A stretch of DNA of 39,649 nt from positions 1 through 39,649 of the forward strand of contig CP046063.1 of assembly GCA_009676745.1 (NCBI GenBank), in the 5' to 3' direction. The notes beneath the pieces are model-generated. The model saw nothing but the letters and a program-made list of their open reading frames with translations, did not search any database and had not been told where the DNA came from. This stretch comes from Leuconostoc mesenteroides subsp. mesenteroides (lineage in GTDB: Bacteria; Bacillota; Bacilli; Lactobacillales; Lactobacillaceae). A program made the translations under genes and the position numbers. Below, piece by piece: positions 1,456-38,347 of the stretch. Position 1 is the stretch's first letter. Every line of letters starts with the position of its first letter.

Positions 1456-3251
1456 ATGAGTAAAAATATAAGAAATTTAGCTATCATTGCACACATAGAT
1501 CATGGTAAATCAACATTATCTGATCGTATTATAGAGGTTACAAATACAATTTCTAGCCGTGAAATGGAAGATCAAATACTTGATGATTTGCAGGTTGAAA
1601 GGGATCATGGCGTAACCGTAAAAGCAAGAGCCATTCAGAATACTTATCTTGCAGATAATAATGAAAAATACGAAATTAATTTAATTGATACACCTGGGCA
1701 TGTTGATTTTCAAGATGAAGTTACTAAAAGTCTCACAGCTAGCGATAATGCAATTCTCTTAATCGATGCTACTCAAGGCATTGAAGCACAAACTTTAGCT
1801 AATTTAAGAATTGGTAAAAAACTTGGAGTAAAAATATTACCAGTGATTAACAAAGTAGATATAGCAGGTATAAATACTCATAAAATTGAAACAGAGATAA
1901 AGACGTTATGTCCAGAATATCAAAACAGAGATATTTTAAAAATATCTGCCAAGACAGGTGTTGGAATACATGAACTTATGGAAACAGTAGTTCTTAATCT
2001 TTTGCCTCCAGCAGGAAATGATAAAAAAAATTATCTGCTTTGGTTTTTGACTCTTATTATGATCCATTCCAAGGTGTTATTTTATATATTCGAATTGTCG
2101 ATGGTATTCTAAAAAATAATCAGAAACTGATGTTTTTATCAAAAAATATCACATTTCAAATCCATGAACTTGGTATTTTCACGACAATACGTATGCCTAA
2201 ATCACAGTTAAAATCTGGAGAAGTGGGATATTTGATTACAGGTATAAAAAATGTAGATACATCTTATGTTGGCGAAACGATAACAGATGCCAACGCACCA
2301 ACTAACTCACTTTTACCCACTATTAAAATGAGTCAAGTGACAGTATTTGCTGGAATATATCCTTTGGGAGACTATAAGTTGTTAGCCAAAGCGTTAAAAC
2401 AACTTAAACTTAATGATTCATCATTAAGCATCAAAGAGGAGTATTCAAATGCTTTAGGTATGGGATTTAGAGTAGGATTGTTAGGCATCTTTCATTTACA
2501 AATTATAAAAGAACGTTTAAAAAAAGAATTTTTGATTGATGTATTAATAACCTATCCAAATGTACCCTATCGCGTTTATCTTAAAAATAATGAAAATGTT
2601 ACAATTGTTAATCCGGCTACTTTTCCAAATTTTGAGATGATTGATCATGTAGATGAAATAATCATTAAAGCAACTATCATTACACCACAAAAGACAATTA
2701 ATGCAGTGATGAAATTACTTTCTGAAAATAGAGGCGAGTTTATAGGTATTGATAATCATAGTGATTTAGTTAGCTTATCTTATCGTGTGCCACTATCTAA
2801 GATTATTTATTCCTTTTTCAATAAATTAAAATCAATTTCACATGGTTACGCTTCTCTAGCAACAACATCTATAGGTTACTATCGTACGAATGTTGTTAGA
2901 CTTGATATTTATATTAACTACGTCAGAGTAGACGAATTAACGTCCATCACTTACAAATCGGAATCAGAATCCATTGCGCAAAAAATAGTTCACCAATTAA
3001 AATATACTATTCCCAAAAGATTATACCCACTACCAGTGCAAGTAATGATGGAGGGGAAAGTTATTGCAAGGGTAGATGTCCCACCATTAAGAAAAAATGC
3101 GGCAGTTAGTGGAAAGAATAATAGTATTTCCAAGCAACAAGAACTCCTCAGAAGGCAAAATATTAATCAAAGAAAAGCTGCATCCAATGATATAGAATTA
3201 CCTCAGAAAGTTTTTAGCACAATGTTTAAAATCGAGGATGAGGAGCTTTAA
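1456..3251 (+). pseudogene. lepA-like: diverged LepA/EF-4 paralogue, interrupted by a -1 frame change
   Basis: Two overlapping frames (1456-2112, and the second open through 3251) together give about 598 residues, the normal EF-4 length. All GTPase boxes are present: AHIDHGKST, the ERDHGVT switch, DTPGH, NKVD and SAKTG. The second frame continues with domain II (LVFDSYYDPFQGV), the EF-G-like domain and the LepA C-terminal domain. The frames switch at an A8 tract (2023-2030); one extra A restores the protein. The same place offers an A AAA AAT slippery heptamer, so -1 frameshifting could still yield full protein. The canonical YGGD-(S/T)-RK motif of the C-terminal tail is degraded (SGKNNSISKQQ). 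EF-4 acts on stalled or back-translocating ribosomes; this copy is probably an accessory paralogue. GGAG precedes the ATG. Confidence 0.8.
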
Positions 3252-17397: not shown

Positions 17398-17490
17398 TTG
17401 ACTTTTAATCAACTCAACAACCAATGCTAGTAAGGCAACTATAAAAGTGCCAAACATAAACATGAGCTGTAAAGCGTCTGAAACAGACAC
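17386..17490 (-). CDS. putative holin-like toxin (type I TA), 34 aa
   Basis: A GTG with AAAGGA eight bases upstream encodes a 34-residue peptide: a polar start, the DALQLMFMFGTFIVALLALVV membrane helix (written in parts: DALQLMFMFG then TFIVALLALVV) and a basic end, IKSQQKK. This is the typical putative holin-like toxin of lactic acid bacteria plasmids, which depolarises the membrane when its antisense RNA is lost. It lies between VirB4 and the VirB6-like gene, in the same direction as the operon. Only a short overlap with the antisense RNA touches the coding end; most pairing is in the 3' untranslated part. Confidence 0.8.
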   Translation of the reverse strand: MSVSDALQLMFMFGTFIVALLALVVELIKSQQKK

Positions 17491-17608
17491 CAGGCTTTTC
17501 CTTTCCTAGAGTTCGTGTTTATAGGTTTTACACCATAAGCACCACCTCTTTTCTGTTGAAAGAATAGCCACCACTTAACTTAACTATCGACTGTTCTATT
17601 TTAACATA

Positions 17609-20131
17609 TTAGCGATAAGCTTTTTCGGCTTGTGCCGTGTCACCAGCTTTAACTGTCTGATAAGCACGTTGCATAGCAACCAATGGCTCATCAACCGTTA
17701 TTTTTTCAACCCGTCCATAAATATCTTTCATGAAACACTGTCCCATGACCATATTACTTAATTCTTTGATGTTGTCATCATTAACTGGCAAACCAACATG
17801 TTGTAAAATATCTGGCTGTTCCTTATCCTCATCAAAGGCAAACAAAACACCAAAATTATCACTTTTAACATCATGAACTGATTGTGTCACTGGAATTAAC
17901 AAGTTATTGGCAGAACGTCCAATACGTGCCATTTCATTAAAAATACGACTACCAATATCAGACGTTGTAAACGTCCAAGCTTCATCAAATATTTCAACCG
18001 TTTTTTCATCATAATCCCGTGTCGCAAACGCCCGACTAAAGACCCCTAACACCGTCATTACAATCATACTTGCCACCTCAAATTCGGTGTAATCCTGTTT
18101 GGCTTTGTCATGTTGTGGCAATGTCAATCCTGCTGTTTCAAGAATAGTAATCCGATTGTTTAACTTCAATCCCTCACTTTCACCATGTGAAAAGACTAGG
18201 GACAATGAGCTACGAGTAACCTTACCTGATAAAAACTTAGCTAAATGTTTCACGTCTTCATCTTCATTTTGGGCTAATTTTTCAATGACATCTAACATAC
18301 CAACGGTTTCACCAGCTTGTCGCTTTTGAATAATTTTATTAATGGCAAGATCTAATTCTGTTTCGGCAATTAAGGAACCATAATCACGATAAATTTGTTT
18401 AAAAATTTCTTGTACCGTAGCCTTTAAGCTTTCTTCACCTGACTGTGTTTGTCCCATTGTATGCCGCACATCAATCACAATAAAGGGATCCAAAACACCA
18501 TAATTTGTTTTATCAGAAACATCAAGCGTCACAAAACGCACATTATTCAATAATGTATATTCATCTGGATAATCTGTCTTAAAAGTCTGATCGTTCAATA
18601 CCGCTGAATACCATTTACGCATTTCCTGCTTAGGATCAAAATAGATTGCTTTAGCATTTGAAAGTTGAATGATTTTCAAAATGATTTTAGTGAGGTAAGA
18701 CTTTCCTCTACCTGTTTTACCCGTAATCATAATATTAGGGCTGGTGGTGCTGGTGGATCCGTCTAAAATTTCGTTGGTAATCAACGGATTAAAAAAGACC
18801 AAGCGCTTTGAACTGTCTAATGCGTCCTGGGTACTATTAGCAACTGTTTTCGGCGCACCACGTCCAATATAAAAGCCAATGTTACTACCAACTTGTTGAT
18901 TGACGGCAAACAACAGCTCACCAATACCCTCACTGGTCAATAATTGCACCCAATAGCGGTTTTGGGACACATCAGAACCCATTAAATCATAATAGAAAAG
19001 ACGTTTTTGTTCACCGATTGGTTTCACAATATTCACGTCAATACTCCTAAATGATTCTATTAAATTAGCAACACGATCATGTAGGGTTTCAATATCTTCC
19101 GCTGATACCGTAAACGTGACTATGGTGGAAAAGAAGTTTTTCTTTTCTGAAATATGATCATTTAGCACTTCGGCAATTTCAATCGTTTTATCATCTTTAC
19201 TAGAAGAAAATCCCTCTGCCTGATAACGTTCTTCAACATTATTACTAGCTGTCTTTAACGATTGACTAGCACGAGTTGCTAAGCCATAGATACCCTCTGA
19301 CTTATAATAATGGGCTTTCAAATTGATGTCGATTGGATAACTCATATTTTGTACTAGTCGGAATAAATGAAAGCCTGTGATGTTTTCTGGCGTTGTCGAT
19401 AACACTAATTTGGCAACATAACGCACATTATCATCATTAACCAATTTAACGTAGCCACTCACTGCCCCATCATCAATCACAGTATCACTTAATTTGAAAA
19501 TATCACGTTCTTGTCCGACTTTTCTAAAATCATGTAGCTGTCCCTGGATAAAGTTATTACGCATTAAATGAACTAATTCATCAGTGGTCAAACGCCTGGT
19601 ATGATCCAAATAGCCAACTTTTTCATAAGCCTGTTTTTCACTAGTTCTAAAATCATCAAACAGTTTTTCGTCAAATGGCTTTTCATAATTAAACCAACCA
19701 GCCAACTCATCTACAAAGTTATTCATGGCATTAGTGGCTTGTTTAATCACTTTACCAGAATTTTGATTATGTAATTTGATACCCAAAACAAAACGTTCAA
19801 TCGTCTGTGACACACCAGTAGCAGTGATTGCACTAATTTCATCTACAATCATTTGAACGGGTGTCTCACCCATATCTGTTGCTAAAGACGGTTGCAATTC
19901 TTTATAACGATTGACCAAATCCAAATCACGATTATAAAGACGTAATTCAAAATCTTCAAAATCAGCGAGCCGATCAAATAACAGACTCAATTGTGTTTGT
20001 CGTTTAGAAATACCGGCCTCATCATTATCTGAAATACTTAGTGCTTCAATATTGAAATATGCCCAGGCTTCATTGTCCTGGGTTAATAAAATATTATCTT
20101 TCACGGCTTTAAATGGTACTGCTAGTTTCAT
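17609..20131 (-). CDS. VirB4-like conjugation ATPase (Tn916 Orf16/ConE type)
   Basis: The 840-aa protein has Walker A GKTGRGKS at residues 471-478 and Walker B VEIFDEAW (Asp716, Glu717), with an N-terminal half of the VirB4/TraE kind. It is the membrane-associated motor of the type IV channel. Length matches Tn916 Orf16 and ICEBs1 ConE. AAGGAGA precedes the ATG by 5 bases. It is followed by the type I TA locus and then the VirB6-like gene. Confidence 0.93.
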   Translation of the reverse strand: MKLAVPFKAVKDNILLTQDNEAWAYFNIEALSISDNDEAGISKRQTQLSLLFDRLADFEDFELRLYNRDLDLVNRYKELQPSLATDMGETPVQMIVDEISAITATGVSQTIERFVLGIKLHNQNSGKVIKQATNAMNNFVDELAGWFNYEKPFDEKLFDDFRTSEKQAYEKVGYLDHTRRLTTDELVHLMRNNFIQGQLHDFRKVGQERDIFKLSDTVIDDGAVSGYVKLVNDDNVRYVAKLVLSTTPENITGFHLFRLVQNMSYPIDINLKAHYYKSEGIYGLATRASQSLKTASNNVEERYQAEGFSSSKDDKTIEIAEVLNDHISEKKNFFSTIVTFTVSAEDIETLHDRVANLIESFRSIDVNIVKPIGEQKRLFYYDLMGSDVSQNRYWVQLLTSEGIGELLFAVNQQVGSNIGFYIGRGAPKTVANSTQDALDSSKRLVFFNPLITNEILDGSTSTTSPNIMITGKTGRGKSYLTKIILKIIQLSNAKAIYFDPKQEMRKWYSAVLNDQTFKTDYPDEYTLLNNVRFVTLDVSDKTNYGVLDPFIVIDVRHTMGQTQSGEESLKATVQEIFKQIYRDYGSLIAETELDLAINKIIQKRQAGETVGMLDVIEKLAQNEDEDVKHLAKFLSGKVTRSSLSLVFSHGESEGLKLNNRITILETAGLTLPQHDKAKQDYTEFEVASMIVMTVLGVFSRAFATRDYDEKTVEIFDEAWTFTTSDIGSRIFNEMARIGRSANNLLIPVTQSVHDVKSDNFGVLFAFDEDKEQPDILQHVGLPVNDDNIKELSNMVMGQCFMKDIYGRVEKITVDEPLVAMQRAYQTVKAGDTAQAEKAYR

Positions 20132-20193: not shown

Positions 20194-20385
20194 CTAATAA
20201 ACAATCACTTTTTTTGTATCTTCCAACACAAAACCATTCTTAATGCGCCACCTGATTTGAATTAAGCCATTCGCATCAAAATAGCGCAATTCAAGGGTAG
20301 TTTTGAGATACGTCCACTTAATATCAGTGACATTAAGGTCATAGAGGTAAGCATTATAAATCGCTTTAAATTCCGCAACTAACAC
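20194..20385 (-). CDS. small hypothetical protein
   Basis: A GTG start overlaps the ArdA stop by one base and gives 63 residues, rich in aromatic and charged residues (FKAIYNAYLYDLNVTDIKW). No membrane segment. The coupling to ArdA and the conserved operon direction support that it is real. No family recognised. Confidence 0.6.
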   Translation of the reverse strand: MLVAEFKAIYNAYLYDLNVTDIKWTYLKTTLELRYFDANGLIQIRWRIKNGFVLEDTKKVIVY

Positions 20386-20906
20386 TACAACCCTACATAA
20401 TCGCCATGAGGTAGCTTCGTGAAATCACCACCCAAAATCAGATCATGTCCGTATTTTTTGAAATCAAAATAATAATTGATGTCCTCATTCGATAGCTGAC
20501 CAACACCACCACGCGTTGAGATCACTTCGTTGGCTAAGTCATCTTCATCTTCTGCTTTGATAATTGTTAAATTTTCAACTTGGCTGTCAATCTGATTATC
20601 AAGTAAAACTAACCCTTGATCATATAAATCAGCTAAAGTTTGCTCATCAACACCATTTTCAACCGCTCTTTTGGCACTCTCAACCATGTTATTTAGCTTA
20701 ACAATCGACTCATAAGGATCTATTTTAAATGGTGCTTCATAATCACTAATCATGATTTCTTCGTTCCCAGTATCTGATCCAATCGCGCCTTTTTCAGTTA
20801 AAACTTGTGTTACCCGACTAGGTGACACAGGCAATGTAAACCATTGACCAAGAGACGGTACATTCACAGCGCCAACAAATATTTTAATTTCACTAAACTT
20901 AATCAT
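20385..20906 (-). CDS. ardA: ArdA-like antirestriction protein
   Basis: The 173-aa protein matches the Tn916 Orf18 (ArdA) pattern: a start like IFVGAVNVPSLGQWFTLP, the acidic ISDYEAPFKIDPYESIVKLN segment, and an end YFDFKKYGHDLILGGDF. ArdA is a DNA mimic that blocks type I restriction enzymes on entry into a new host. Acidic composition fits. AAGGGGGTG precedes the ATG. The ardA position in the conjugation operon is as in Tn916. Confidence 0.85.
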   Translation of the reverse strand: MIKFSEIKIFVGAVNVPSLGQWFTLPVSPSRVTQVLTEKGAIGSDTGNEEIMISDYEAPFKIDPYESIVKLNNMVESAKRAVENGVDEQTLADLYDQGLVLLDNQIDSQVENLTIIKAEDEDDLANEVISTRGGVGQLSNEDINYYFDFKKYGHDLILGGDFTKLPHGDYVGL

Positions 20907-33602: not shown

Positions 33603-35336
33603 ATGGCAGTTTTTGGAGAAAGATTTATACTTGGATTTACAAGTCCAAGAAGTCCATATTTAATACAAGAATATATAAAAGTTATTGATAAAAATAAAAT
33701 GGATGATATTCCGTACAATAAATCCTTCCAAGAAAAATTCTATAAATTTCTTTCGAAGGCCCAGGTAGCTGGTGAAATGGCTGGAAATGCAAAAGATAAA
33801 GCCTTAGCAGGACGTGATAAACTAACCCGAATGCCTCAAGCCCTGGGGTTTTTTATCACACAAAAGGGACAAAATTTTAAAGTTACTGAAGCCGGAAAAT
33901 TATTAGAAGATAGTGCTTTGTTTGAAGACGTTTTGCTTCATCAAATGCTTAAATATCAGTTGCCCTCTTGCCTTCATAGAGAACGTAATACTAATAAAGG
34001 ATATTTTAAGATAAAACCTTTTTTGGAGTTAATAAGATTGGTTAACGTTCTTGAATATTTAACATATAAAGAAATGCTTATATTTGGAATGACTCTGACC
34101 AATTATAATAGGTTTGAAGAGACTGTTAATAAAATTAAACAATACAGAGTTGATCGTAAAAAAATAAAAAAGCAAAAGAAATCATTAAAAAGATTTGATT
34201 ATGAAACTCAACTTAATTTATTTACAAATTTGTACAAAGATATAATCGATTCAGGAAACATCGAAACACGTGAATCTAAAACTAAAACAGCGGAAGAATA
34301 TATGAAAAAAAAGATGAGTAATTGGAACGATTATACAGACTCTATTTTTCGTATTTTAAGAGCTTCTGGTATCTTTGTGTTTACAAAAGGACGATCATTG
34401 TCAATTAGCCCTAATCGGCAGAATGAAGTTGACTATATGCTTACGCACATAAAACGTGATATTGAACCAGTTGATATGAGTCGAAAAGATTTTGATGAGT
34501 ATATTTCAAATCCCTATATTCCTCAATTACTAAATGATAATAAAACAAACTTAATATCTAGTTTAAAAAAATTAGGCGGCTCCGGAAGTTTAGACGATAC
34601 AATTTATATGTTAAAGCATAATCTTAGTCAAAAACGTGAAGAGAGCAGGCAGCTAAAATTAGCAAAAAAACAATCCTCCTTAAAAGTACGAAGTAGACAA
34701 GATATCGATGATATTATTGATGTGTTCAATGACATTACTAACAATAATATCGAGCCTGCAAGTATGAGACCAACACTATTTGAATGGAATGTTTGGCGAG
34801 CAATGACTATGATAAATCATGGAAACATTCGTGGAAACTTCATTGTAGATGATTCGGGTATGCCTGTATCTACAGCTAGTGGCGGTCAAAGTGATATTGT
34901 AGGCGAGTATAGCAACTTCAATATTGGCGTAGAAGTCACTCTTTCAAAAGGAAAAAAACAATATGAAATGGAAAGTGAACCCGTAACACGCCATATTGGA
35001 GAAATGCAGATAAAAAAACCGAGCTTTGGAATATTTATAGCTGACAAATTACAGGAATCAGTAATAAACCATTTTTACACCGTTTCACACCAAAATTCTC
35101 GTATTTATAATGGTATTGTCGATATTATACCAATGGACACAAAGACATTCATAGATTTCTTTAAACAAGCGATTCAAAAAGATTTACACCCTGAAGAATT
35201 ATTTTCTATCCATGAATTTTCAAAATTAATATCCAAGCAAATGCTTTTAGACGAAAAAACTGAAGTTGATTGGCATGCAGCCGTCTTAAAAAAGGCTTTT
35301 AAAGTTACATCAATTGGAACAAACAATATAAAGTAA
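33603..35336 (+). CDS. AlwI-family type II restriction endonuclease
   Basis: The 577-aa protein shows the AlwI/PleI/Nt.BstNBI pattern: a DNA-reading N-terminal half, then FEWNVWRAMTMI and the nuclease core GGQSDIVGEYSNF-NIGVEVTLSKG (Asp431, Glu444) with ESEPVTRH after it. Such enzymes cut outside asymmetric sites such as GGATC or GAGTC. GAAAGG precedes the ATG. It sits directly after the methylase, making a complete restriction-modification pair. The exact site is inferred from the family only. Confidence 0.85.
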   Translation: MAVFGERFILGFTSPRSPYLIQEYIKVIDKNKMDDIPYNKSFQEKFYKFLSKAQVAGEMAGNAKDKALAGRDKLTRMPQALGFFITQKGQNFKVTEAGKLLEDSALFEDVLLHQMLKYQLPSCLHRERNTNKGYFKIKPFLELIRLVNVLEYLTYKEMLIFGMTLTNYNRFEETVNKIKQYRVDRKKIKKQKKSLKRFDYETQLNLFTNLYKDIIDSGNIETRESKTKTAEEYMKKKMSNWNDYTDSIFRILRASGIFVFTKGRSLSISPNRQNEVDYMLTHIKRDIEPVDMSRKDFDEYISNPYIPQLLNDNKTNLISSLKKLGGSGSLDDTIYMLKHNLSQKREESRQLKLAKKQSSLKVRSRQDIDDIIDVFNDITNNNIEPASMRPTLFEWNVWRAMTMINHGNIRGNFIVDDSGMPVSTASGGQSDIVGEYSNFNIGVEVTLSKGKKQYEMESEPVTRHIGEMQIKKPSFGIFIADKLQESVINHFYTVSHQNSRIYNGIVDIIPMDTKTFIDFFKQAIQKDLHPEELFSIHEFSKLISKQMLLDEKTEVDWHAAVLKKAFKVTSIGTNNIK

Positions 35337-35417
35337 GTGGTTTAATAAAATTCAACTACGAAAAAATCTTATTCGAATTAGACTTAAATAAATTAATAGC
35401 ATTCGTATTTTTATCTC

Positions 35418-35446
35418 TTGAAAATTTATAATATAATTTGTATAAT
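35418..35446 (+). promoter_or_regulatory. consensus promoter in the RT upstream gap
   Basis: TTGAAA (35418-35423), 17-base spacer and TATAAT (35441-35446). It starts transcription at about 35453, some 350 bases before the reverse transcriptase start, an unusually long leader that fits a noncoding RNA. Confidence 0.75.
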
Positions 35447-35452
35447 TAAACT

Positions 35453-35681
35453 ACCTAGAGTGGCCAGAAATAGCTTTAGACGAATTGATACAATGTTTCG
35501 AACATAAATGCAATAGCCTCCTGGTTTATAAATGTAATTGTGTTTGAATAATCAATTAGACTAAGAGTAATCAGCCCTATAAGTGTGAAACTAATACTGA
35601 ATAAGTTTAGGTTCTCAATGCAGGACTTCTCAAGTCTATTATACTTTTAGACAGCATAAGCGTTTTACGCTTATAAAATAA
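35453..35681 (+). ncRNA. candidate noncoding RNA partner of the reverse transcriptase
   Basis: From the promoter's start site a series of hairpins is visible: CCAG (35464) paired with CTGG (35521) enclosing ATGTT-tcg-AACAT (35493-35505); GACTT-ctc-AAGTC near 35623-35635; and ATAAGCGT-ttt-ACGCTTAT (35656-35674). No start-to-stop frame of note exists. Several defence RTs (DRT2, DRT3, DRT9) have such an RNA upstream as template or scaffold. The 3' end is a guess. Confidence 0.6.
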
Positions 35682-35729
35682 TAAAATATTTTATCAAGAA
35701 TTACTGGCAATTACAATTGATAATTAAGA

Positions 35730-35779
35730 AAAGCACCCCTGGTAGGATTCGTTGTCATCCATATATTCTCGGGTGCTTT
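35730..35779 (+). promoter_or_regulatory. long hairpin just before the RT ribosome site
   Basis: AAAGCACCC (35730-35738) pairs with GGGTGCTTT (35771-35779) and encloses an inner GGAT/ATCC stem (35745-35760). There is no T-run after it. It ends 9 bases before the AAGGA of the RT gene, so it could be the 3' end of the noncoding RNA or a control element for RT translation. Confidence 0.6.
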
Positions 35780-35801
35780 CGATATATTAAGGACTTTTAT
35801 T

Positions 35802-37307
35802 TTGGATCCAGATTATTTTTTCTCTAAAGTTAATAAAAATTACCTACACATTGATTTTCCATTATCGAAAAAAGAAGCAAGATTATTCTATAATGAATTA
35901 CTTGATGCCAAAAATATATTGTCCCACAGATTTCTTCCATTAATTCAATTTAAAATTCGCTTTAAAAAATACCCATCTAACCATAAACCTGTACTCAAAG
36001 AGAGAGAAATATCTCTAGTTTCACATCACGACTCAGGAATATACTCTTTTTTATCAAGTGTTATTAACGAAAAATATAATAGATATAGTAAAATTCACGG
36101 TATATCAGAATCATCAGTAGCCTATAGAACAATTAACCATCTTTCCAATATAACAGTTGCCAAAGAAGTTTTTGATTTCATAGACATGCAGAGCGAAGTA
36201 TTTGTCATGAAAGGCGACTTTAAAGGTTTTTTCGATAATCTAGATCATACTATTCTAACCAAACATATTTTTGAAGTTCTAGAATTACATAAAGATACTT
36301 TAGACTATAATGTTTGGTTAAAAATTATCAATAATATTGAAAATTTTCGTAAGATAGATAGAGATATCTTCACCCAAACATTTGAAAATGAAAATCTTCA
36401 TATTCAAAATAGGCATAATGTGAGCGCATACTTTAGTTCACGTAAAGATTTTGGAAGATTTATAAAAAAACATAAAGACTTAATAACTACCAATAAAAAA
36501 AATGGTATACCCCAAGGTACCGGAATAAGTGGCATTTTAGCGAATGTTTACATGGTAGAGTTTGACGAAATAATAGAAAAGTACTCATCTAAATATCAGG
36601 GTATATACAGGCGTTATTCTGATGATTTTATTATTGTTTTGCCAAAAAAATTACTAAATTACGAAACCTTCAAAATATTTGTCGACTATGTTATCAACCT
36701 AAGTCACAATATTGTTAATTTAACTATTGAAGAAAATAAAACAAAAATGTTTTCAGTGAGCAAAGGAAATGTTTTTGATATAAAAAGTAATAAGAATACT
36801 AGCTTAGATTACCTCGGATTTATTTTACAACAAAATACCATTGCTATTAGACCCAAAAGTATATACAAATTTTATTACCGTGGTCGTAGAGCTATTAAAT
36901 ACAGCACTATGGCCAGTAGACTTTACTCCATTTCAAAACAAAGAAGTAGAATAAGTAACCAAAAGATAAAAGATCTTCCTTTAAAAATCCGTTCTGATTA
37001 TAATAAAATATATGGTGGTAAAAATATTTTCACTGAAAATATTCACGAACAAAAAGCTAAAAATAATCGTGTAGAGCGAATAATTCATCATCAAAGAAGT
37101 AAAGTAGGATTACCAGAAATTAAAAAAGTCAAAAAGTCATATTTACAGAAAGTAGATAGAGCAAAACCAAGAGAGTCATTCTTGTCTTATGTAAAATTAG
37201 CAAACAAAATATTTAGCGAGGGAAGTTTTGGATATAAACTAGCATTTACAAAGCAAGCTAAAAAAACTAGAAGGAAATTTTATAAACTACGTAGAGATTT
37301 AACATAA
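35802..37307 (+). CDS. reverse transcriptase, defence-associated (DRT/Abi/unknown group)
   Basis: The 501-aa protein has RT motifs: REISLVSHHDSGIYSFL and SSVAYRTI (about 68-111), NITVAKEVFDFI, motif A GDFKGFFDNLDH (Asp139), IPQGTGISG (236-244) and YSDD (272-275), then the thumb LDYLGFI with IRPKS. The AYR...SN..AKEVF block occurs in defence RTs of the unknown-group/Abi kind. Group II maturase/endonuclease domains and retron-specific motifs are not seen. The basic C-terminal 150 residues (RRAIKYSTM, KKTRRKFYKLRRD) probably bind RNA. Start is TTG with AAGGA upstream. The subgroup cannot be named by eye. Confidence 0.85.
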   Translation: MDPDYFFSKVNKNYLHIDFPLSKKEARLFYNELLDAKNILSHRFLPLIQFKIRFKKYPSNHKPVLKEREISLVSHHDSGIYSFLSSVINEKYNRYSKIHGISESSVAYRTINHLSNITVAKEVFDFIDMQSEVFVMKGDFKGFFDNLDHTILTKHIFEVLELHKDTLDYNVWLKIINNIENFRKIDRDIFTQTFENENLHIQNRHNVSAYFSSRKDFGRFIKKHKDLITTNKKNGIPQGTGISGILANVYMVEFDEIIEKYSSKYQGIYRRYSDDFIIVLPKKLLNYETFKIFVDYVINLSHNIVNLTIEENKTKMFSVSKGNVFDIKSNKNTSLDYLGFILQQNTIAIRPKSIYKFYYRGRRAIKYSTMASRLYSISKQRSRISNQKIKDLPLKIRSDYNKIYGGKNIFTENIHEQKAKNNRVERIIHHQRSKVGLPEIKKVKKSYLQKVDRAKPRESFLSYVKLANKIFSEGSFGYKLAFTKQAKKTRRKFYKLRRDLT

Positions 37308-37406
37308 GTATTCATTTTCTAAAACCACCAGTTAATGTATAGTAATAGGACAACGCAAGGTACTTGTAAGAGGTTTGCACAATTTGAGTTTATTACCTAA
37401 AAAAAT

Positions 37407-37452
37407 AATAGCCTTATTATGATTAAAACTATTTAGTCATAATAAGGCTATT
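37407..37452. terminator. terminator after the RT gene
   Basis: Perfect 16-bp arms (AATAGCCTTATTATGA and its complement) flank a 14-base loop. A-rich sequence precedes and T-rich sequence follows, so it may work both ways. It closes the RT transcription unit. Confidence 0.7.
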
Positions 37453-37514
37453 TATGTTAAATAAGATGGGGTATAATTGTCCTGATTTTATATATACCAC
37501 CCGATCTATTACCT

Positions 37515-37688
37515 ATGACAAAAACATGTGTAGTAAAAATTTGTATAGCGAACCAGGTAGCGGGTCTTTACATTGGTTCAGAAGCATCACCTTATAAAAG
37601 CAACATTCCTCCGTTAAATATTTTTGTCAAAGAATTGGAAAAAATTGGAAGGAATGACATTGCTAATATAATTAGACAACATCTGTAA
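37515..37688 (+). CDS. 57-aa hypothetical ORF or gene remnant
   Basis: The frame begins MTKTCVVKIC and ends with an amphipathic helix, KELEKIGRNDIANIIRQHL, with protein-like composition. A strong terminator follows 7 bases after the stop. No ribosome site is seen before the ATG, so it may be the 3' end of a larger gene truncated upstream. Unknown family. Confidence 0.45.
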   Translation: MTKTCVVKICIANQVAGLYIGSEASPYKSNIPPLNIFVKELEKIGRNDIANIIRQHL

Positions 37689-37694
37689 AACAAT

Positions 37695-37725
37695 GCAAGA
37701 TACTTTTAAGTATCTTGCGCTTTTT
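37695..37725 (+). terminator. rho-independent terminator
   Basis: GCAAGATACTT and AAGTATCTTGC (11-bp perfect arms, 2-base loop) are followed by GCTTTTTATAT. It ends the short ORF or the gene it came from. Confidence 0.8.
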
Positions 37726-37748
37726 ATATCCCTTGATATAATAGGTTT

Positions 37749-37789
37749 TATAATATGCAATTTAATTATGCAAATTAATGAGGTGGAAA
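37749..37789. promoter_or_regulatory. promoter/res-like region of the resolvase
   Basis: TATAAT (37749-37754) overlaps two direct copies of TATGCAA (37754 and 37767) just before the resolvase. Resolvase genes usually sit next to their res subsites, which also serve as operator. Weak evidence: no full three-subsite res was made out. Confidence 0.35.
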
Positions 37790-38347
37790 ATGACAGTTTA
37801 TGGCTATGCACGCGTCTCAACAGCGGGACAATCGTTAAATGAACAAAAAGATACTTTGAAGAAGGCTGGTGCTGATATCATTATGAGTGAAAAATATTCT
37901 GGGACCACTACCACACGTCCCCAATTCGAAAAGTTAGTTCATTTAGTTGAACCAAATGATACTTTGATTGTCACAAAATTAGACCGTTTTGCCCGTAACA
38001 CGCGAGAAGCGCTAAATTTAATTGACTCCCTATTAAAAGAAAAAATCGTTATCAAAGTTTTAAACTTAGGAACGATTGATAACACTCCTATGGGTCGTAT
38101 GCTTGTTAGAACCTTATTGTCGGTTGCGGAGATGGAACGTGACATGATTATTGAACGTACACAAGCAGGAAAAATATTTGCTAAGCAACACAATCCTAAC
38201 TATAAAGAAGGCAGACCCAAAAGAAAAAAAGATAGCCGAAATACTGCTATCTTTGAATATTCAAAAACACATACTGTTAAAGTAACTGCCGAAGCATTCA
38301 ATATTTCACCTAGGACCGTGCAATATATTAAAAAACTATTCAGATAA
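37790..38347 (+). CDS. serine recombinase (resolvase/invertase)
   Basis: About 185 residues with catalytic Ser10 in YARVSTAGQS, the TKLDRFARNTREALN motif, MGRMLVRTLLSVAEMERDMIIERT long helix, and a C-terminal helix-turn-helix (VTAEAFNISPRTVQYIKKL). Small serine recombinase of the resolvase type, typically resolving plasmid multimers or transposon cointegrates. The ATG at 37790 with GAGGTGG upstream is the better start. Confidence 0.92.
   Translation: MTVYGYARVSTAGQSLNEQKDTLKKAGADIIMSEKYSGTTTTRPQFEKLVHLVEPNDTLIVTKLDRFARNTREALNLIDSLLKEKIVIKVLNLGTIDNTPMGRMLVRTLLSVAEMERDMIIERTQAGKIFAKQHNPNYKEGRPKRKKDSRNTAIFEYSKTHTVKVTAEAFNISPRTVQYIKKLFR

Follow-up and report, generated by a model that had tools for sequence, protein, structure and literature searches.

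A reverse transcriptase gene and its upstream RNA

The DNA that we analyzed (the window) is an entire 39,649-bp plasmid of Leuconostoc mesenteroides, contig 2 of its genome. Over 1,974 bases it agrees without a difference with CP042405.1, the circular plasmid, equally long, of Leuconostoc mesenteroides CBA3628 from kimchi. The locus of interest encodes a reverse transcriptase (RT) whose open reading frame starts with TTG and is annotated in CP042405.1 as a hypothetical protein. A protein that is 87% identical (P0002) starts at the same residue, with V; hence P0002 also lacks an ATG start. A Dam-family methylase and an AlwI-type endonuclease lie 5' of the RT gene, and a terminator-like hairpin lies 3' of it (37408-37451). 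A preliminary description of this DNA had placed a 501-aa RT directly after a restriction-modification pair, across a 465-bp gap, and had read in it YSDD and an AYR...AKEVF block. Profiles confirm the methylase and the endonuclease, the gap is the distance from the end of the endonuclease (35336) to the RT, and both motifs are seen in an intact frame.

Table 1. Features of the RT locus, in window coordinates.
Feature	Position	Strand	Basis
Promoter of the ncRNA, probably also of the RT: TTGAAA (35418-35423), 17-bp spacer, TATAAT (35441-35446)	35418-35446	+	Consensus scan, 11/12
Putative DRT2-type ncRNA	35453-35783	+	Fold and layout common to relatives; ends inferred
5' handle, CTAGAG (35455-35460) with CTTTAG (35474-35479), one G-U pair	35455-35479	+	Inspection against L002, L007 and L045; no chance estimate
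GCCAG, partner CTGGC (35704-35708)	35463-35467	+	Pair in fold
Predicted template, 153 nt; neo on the - strand	35488-35640	+	Sole pair from the frame-blind rule, open, in frame
Jump motif AUAC-1, 5' end of template	35488-35491	+	Pair scan
Candidate neo ATG	35503-35505	-	11 nt after Shine-Dalgarno, in frame
Candidate junction promoter -35, TTGCAT	35508-35513	-	Frame-blind rule; 3/6 matches
Candidate neo Shine-Dalgarno, AGGAGG	35517-35522	-	In neo frame
Candidate junction promoter -10, TATAAT, spanning the jump site	35638-35643	-	Frame-blind rule
Jump motif AUAC-2, immediately 3' of template	35641-35644	+	Pair scan
ncRNA terminal stem, 35730-35738 with 35771-35779	35730-35779	+	Stem comparison
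Shine-Dalgarno of the RT, AAGGA	35789-35793	+	Sequence
Reverse transcriptase, divergent DRT2, YSDD, 501 aa	35802-37307	+	Open reading frame, profiles, tree

Three further observations concern other parts of the plasmid. An ArdA antirestriction gene (20385-20906, minus strand) shares the plasmid with the restriction-modification pair and the RT locus. The Rfam family rli28, a Listeria sRNA, matches 17403-17613 on the minus strand (62.5 bits; gathering score 45), overlapping a gene annotated as a putative holin-like toxin. Finally, two plus-strand open reading frames in different frames, 1456-2112 and 2040-3251, overlap where CP042405 has no CDS; they look like a single split gene, presumably for a TypA/BipA-type GTPase.

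The TTGAAA-N17-TATAAT promoter named in the preliminary description is present and is the best of 19 consensus matches in 35300-37800. Shuffles of this region average 15.6 such matches, so the support for the promoter is its place. Transcription would start near 35453. For the RNA 35453-35801 the fold has an energy of -74.4 kcal/mol (z -2.17), and 3 of 100 shuffles are equally stable. The earlier claim of a structured upstream RNA stands on this fold and on a layout common to relatives, while formal covariation was found only in a sister clade, with compensatory changes on both sides in 25 of 57 predicted pairs (8 sequences). In the window's own clade, the 3' domains of 12 loci resisted alignment with MAFFT, and no pairs came out of the consensus fold. 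No Rfam family matches the region directly 5' of the RT.

The nearest locus compared at the DNA level, L002, encodes an RT with 48% identity and by inspection also has both words GCCAG and CTGGC. For the terminal stem of the window, an equally good stem occurs in 29 of 100 shuffles. The corresponding number among the relatives is 0 for L042, L044 and L045, 1 for L026, 2 for L025 and L033, 5 for L003, 12 for L046, 13 for L002 and 59 for L041; in L004, L006, L007, L024, L037 and L038 the script chose a different stem. On inspection, L006, L007, L024 and L038 have between template and RT a strong hairpin and, right after it, a run of T, as at the end of an ncRNA; unlike these hairpins, the terminal stem of the window has no T run.

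Placement of the RT among defense reverse transcriptases

Among the best 25 of 47 PADLOC families, Drt2 gives the top two matches of the RT (2.7e-99 and 1.3e-62), followed at a distance by RT_UG39 (3.2e-20) and Drt9 (4.8e-20). In NCBIfam the Drt2 equivalog model NF041746 also ranks first, with 260.3 bits, below its curated cut-off of 390. Against solved structures, Klebsiella DRT2 comes first (8.3e-38) and the next kind of RT reaches only 4.5e-4. Other memberships were rejected on scores. A group II intron maturase (TIGR04416) scores 66.6 bits against a cut-off of 300, and a St85-type RT, the sole retron model reported, 46 bits against 235; the RT core is common to these enzymes, and the window RT falls far below their NCBIfam cut-offs. 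DRT9 (UG28) was set aside on its PADLOC score relative to Drt2. Neither profiles nor structures group the RT with group II intron or retron RTs, the outcome that the preliminary description had named as evidence against itself.

We also built a quick tree of 51 rows with SH-aLRT support. The window RT pairs with P0002 inside an 11-row set (support 100). This set belongs to a Lactobacillaceae group, which is separate from the rows of Klebsiella type and also from a group that we label Enterococcus-like. Two distant DRT2-like rows, L019 and L020 from genomes G017 and G251, sit on a branch of 2.15 and have no open unit under either of the rules described below. In G251, contig C32 carries two DRT2-like copies (L020 and L022) about 5.7 kb apart, in one of which the match is interrupted by one TGA and two TAA stops.

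Among the best 120 of 1013 protein matches (E<=1e-20), P0002 is followed by a protein with 49% identity. Relatives of the RT at E 1e-55 occur in 21 of 397 genomes of the family; a second draw of family genomes gave no additional locus. Only one of 19 Leuconostoc genomes, the window's own, has the RT locus, and the genus of L002 has it in 2 of 36. A search of genome contigs returned one locus. Viral contigs returned none for the window protein, and an alignment query gave three, all remote.

The preliminary description had proposed a new DRT-type system, possibly of an unclassified subgroup, in which the RT is paired with a structured upstream RNA. The pairing holds up. The novelty does not, since the RT falls in DRT2 by profiles and the upstream RNA has a DRT2 layout. 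Judged by profile and layout, the locus is a DRT2, although its score does not reach the NCBI equivalog cut-off and it does not belong to the ACA type.

A predicted template and an endless frame

The DRT2 system of Klebsiella pneumoniae, as described by Wilkinson et al. 2024 (PMC12039810) and in the preprint of Tang et al. 2024 (PMC11100668), provides the frame of comparison. There the RT copies a 120-nt ncRNA template into tandem repeats, re-annealing at ACA. The repeat junction rebuilds a promoter, and the antisense transcript holds an endless frame, neo, the product of which arrests growth; repeat copying creates a gene that is absent from the genome itself. The Klebsiella neo start lies 13 nt after the -10 box (Wilkinson et al. 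2024, PMC12039810). Tang et al. (preprint PMC11100668) describe ncRNAs as predictable in more divergent DRT2 clades and the annotation of Neo there as more challenging, and raise the possibility of alternative mechanisms. In the open-licence literature that we searched, we found no published description of neo in Lactobacillaceae.

One scan looked for two copies of a short repeat that, joined head to tail, form a promoter at the junction and give an open concatemer. With no promoter mismatch it recovered units in two Klebsiella-type controls, L030 (111 nt, a length that also appears in Wilkinson et al., PMC12039810) and L031 (144 nt); the third control, L032, gave a unit only at 2 mismatches. 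The scan also found units in many Gram-positive loci. In the window it gave no unit with up to 2 mismatches in the junction promoter, and at 3 mismatches a 153-nt unit was one of 39 pairs. A template of the Klebsiella type was rejected: four ACA occur in 35440-35830, but no pairing of them yields a unit that is both open and a multiple of three.

The 153-nt unit is singled out by a narrow rule that is blind to reading frame and asks for a repeat of at least 3 nt, a TATAAT or TACAAT at the junction, a TTG 16-18 bp upstream and a unit of 84-240 nt. In the 550 nt before the window RT exactly one pair satisfies this rule, ATAC at 35488 and ATAC at 35641. The predicted repeat unit, NRLEKSCIENLNLFSISFTLIGLITLSLIDYSNTITFINQEAIAFMFETLY, has 153 nt or 51 codons and is free of stops as a concatemer. 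TTGCAT and TATAAT are brought to a 17-bp spacing only after the jump; the -10 is perfect and the -35 matches at three of six positions. The distance from the Shine-Dalgarno to the neo ATG is long for such a spacing, and when read in genomic order the frame from this ATG closes after nine codons. L002 has the same order of elements as the window (AAGGAG, TTGAAA, ATG, TATAAT).

The template may still have been delimited wrongly. Repeat synthesis could be DRT2-like with ends other than 35488 and 35640, in which case Neo would have a different length or a partly different sequence. The weak -35 at the predicted junction fits this, as do the different jump motifs of different clades and the two further pairs that a wider rule finds in the window. 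Only one of the three pairs under that wider rule is open, however, and it is the 153-nt pair, which shares the geometry of the relatives and has a ribosome site and a start in frame. We therefore regard other template ends as unlikely.

Chance was assessed with shuffles and with the rest of the plasmid. Under the narrow rule, 1,912 of 4,000 dinucleotide shuffles of the window region contained a pair, 66 an open one, and none an open one with ribosome site and start. When shuffled alone, the 153-nt unit stays open in 4.5% of cases. The remainder of the plasmid, cut into 282 tiles and read on both strands, gave 54 tiles with a pair, 14 open and none with ribosome site and start; the wider rule raised these numbers to 75, 22 and 1. 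As 15 of 79 tile pairs were open, an open frame by itself says little in DNA that is rich in coding sequence.

We then turn to the Lactobacillaceae clade, with 20 loci including the window. Here 10 of 18 pairs are open under the narrow rule and 20 of 43 under the wider one. Counted by locus, the wider rule gives an open unit in 15 of 20 and one with ribosome site and start in 14, L041 being open without a ribosome site. The rule was chosen with these loci in view and the shuffles were run under the identical rule: 60 shuffled sets of 20 loci averaged 0.53 open loci (maximum 3), none with a ribosome site. The shared geometry is a short repeat that overlaps the junction -10, with a TTG about 17 bp upstream. 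No open unit was found under the wider rule in L003, L038, L040, L044 and L047, and in the first four of these open units appear under other filters. The count leaves aside L005 (short, the same as L025), L034, L035 and L036 (identical to L025 or nearly so), the duplicates L023, L028 and L029, the broken copy L022, L043 (no upstream region found), L027 (no anchor found), and L048 and L050-L057 (later additions or other groups).

These counts bear on a different kind of product. The RT might make something else from the RNA, as DRT9 makes a homopolymer, and the open frame would then be a matter of chance. DRT9, a close kin, does work differently from DRT2 (PMC12483538), and the window RT is below the NCBI Drt2 cut-off. 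Against this stand the much weaker Drt9 profile match and the excess, across the clade, of open units that also have a ribosome site and a start, and we consider such a product very improbable. A decayed or inactive DRT2 copy is also conceivable given that the -35 of the window matches at three positions and that most relatives have TTGAC or TTGAA. The RT frame and YSDD are intact, though, the -10 is perfect, and an 87% identical protein is found elsewhere. In addition, L007 (TTGCTT) and L039 (TTGCGT) have an equally weak -35 and their units are open. Decay is thus very unlikely in our judgment.

Proposed mechanism and a second jump signal

Based on these data, we think it likely that the window locus is a divergent DRT2 (UG2) abortive-infection system that makes a tandem-repeat Neo by way of an AUAC jump. 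The DNA itself shows the family of the RT, the layout, the pair of motifs, the length of the unit, a candidate junction promoter with a weak -35, and the frame with its ribosome site and start. Copying, jumping, second-strand synthesis, expression, toxicity and phage defense are carried over from the Klebsiella system and would run as follows. One promoter would serve both the ncRNA and the RT gene, and the RT, bound to the ncRNA, would begin copying the template at 35640 and reach its other end at 35488. There the end of the cDNA, GTAT, would leave AUAC-1 and anneal to AUAC-2 for the next round, giving tandem 153-nt repeats with the predicted junction CATTGTAT/AATAGACTT. Every junction would set TTGCAT 17 bp before TATAAT. 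Once double-stranded, the repeats would give rise to an mRNA that is antisense to the ncRNA and carries AGGAGG...ATG. Its 51-codon frame, crossing every junction without a stop, would yield a repetitive Neo protein that may halt the infected cell. Because the start codon lies 15 nt before the next junction, a product of two repeats would have only about six residues. Given the described position of the Klebsiella start, we infer that Neo of the window would need more repeats than Klebsiella Neo.

The candidate system resembles the described Klebsiella DRT2 in its RT family, in a lone RT gene with an upstream ncRNA and a template in the middle of that RNA, in a unit divisible by three, in the 17-bp spacer of its candidate junction promoter, and in an antisense stop-free frame with ribosome site and start. 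It differs in the jump motif (AUAC rather than ACA), in the -10 box (across the jump site, versus 12 nt away in Klebsiella), in the start codon (near the end of the unit, versus shortly after the -10), in the unit (153 versus 120 nt) and in the RT (501 versus 425 aa, with about 75 window residues beyond the aligned part). With DRT9 it shares an RT and a structured upstream ncRNA; DRT9, in contrast, is described as making protein-primed poly-dA from a U-rich stretch (PMC12483538). The locus does not represent a new kind of system; the copies, though, seem to be re-joined at a different signal than in Klebsiella DRT2.

A sister clade of 14 Lactobacillales loci (L008-L021) is a second departure from the ACA rule. 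A GTT/GTT pair is open in nine of them (L008, L009, L010, L011, L013, L014, L017, L018 and L021), with units of 177-192 nt, a -35 that begins 15 nt before the junction and Neo sequences that can be aligned; L012, L015, L016, L019 and L020 lack an open GTT/GTT unit. The mean over 200 shuffled sets was 0.02 open, with a maximum of 1. Eight further loci (L027, L048, L050 and L053-L057) were unused in setting this geometry. Three of them, L053, L056 and L057, have the GTT geometry and an open frame, which extends the range of GTT units to 138-192 nt; L048, L054 and L055 have other open pairs only, and L027 and L050 have no open pair. A codon comparison of the sister-clade Neo sequences gave no clear sign of selection at the protein level: differences by codon position number 950, 774 and 975 over 2158 codon pairs, and single-base codon differences are silent in 204 cases and replacing in 500.

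Taken over both clades, we lean towards the view that the re-annealing signal of Gram-positive DRT2 systems is clade-specific, that in Lactobacillaceae it is also the -10 box of the promoter made by the jump, and that in the window a start at the end of the unit makes Neo dependent on several repeats. If the signal is indeed clade-specific, ACA would be one solution among several, and neo would become predictable in clades that had been hard to annotate for it. Two Gram-positive groups now have concrete predictions of the template ends, the jump motif and the Neo sequence, so the question of alternative mechanisms is directly testable. The comparison also helps to separate what appears to be needed (a short motif that recurs, a unit length divisible by three, a promoter at the junction, a ribosome site and a start) from the ACA that is specific to Klebsiella, and it yields a varied set of Neo sequences with which the role of Neo can be explored.
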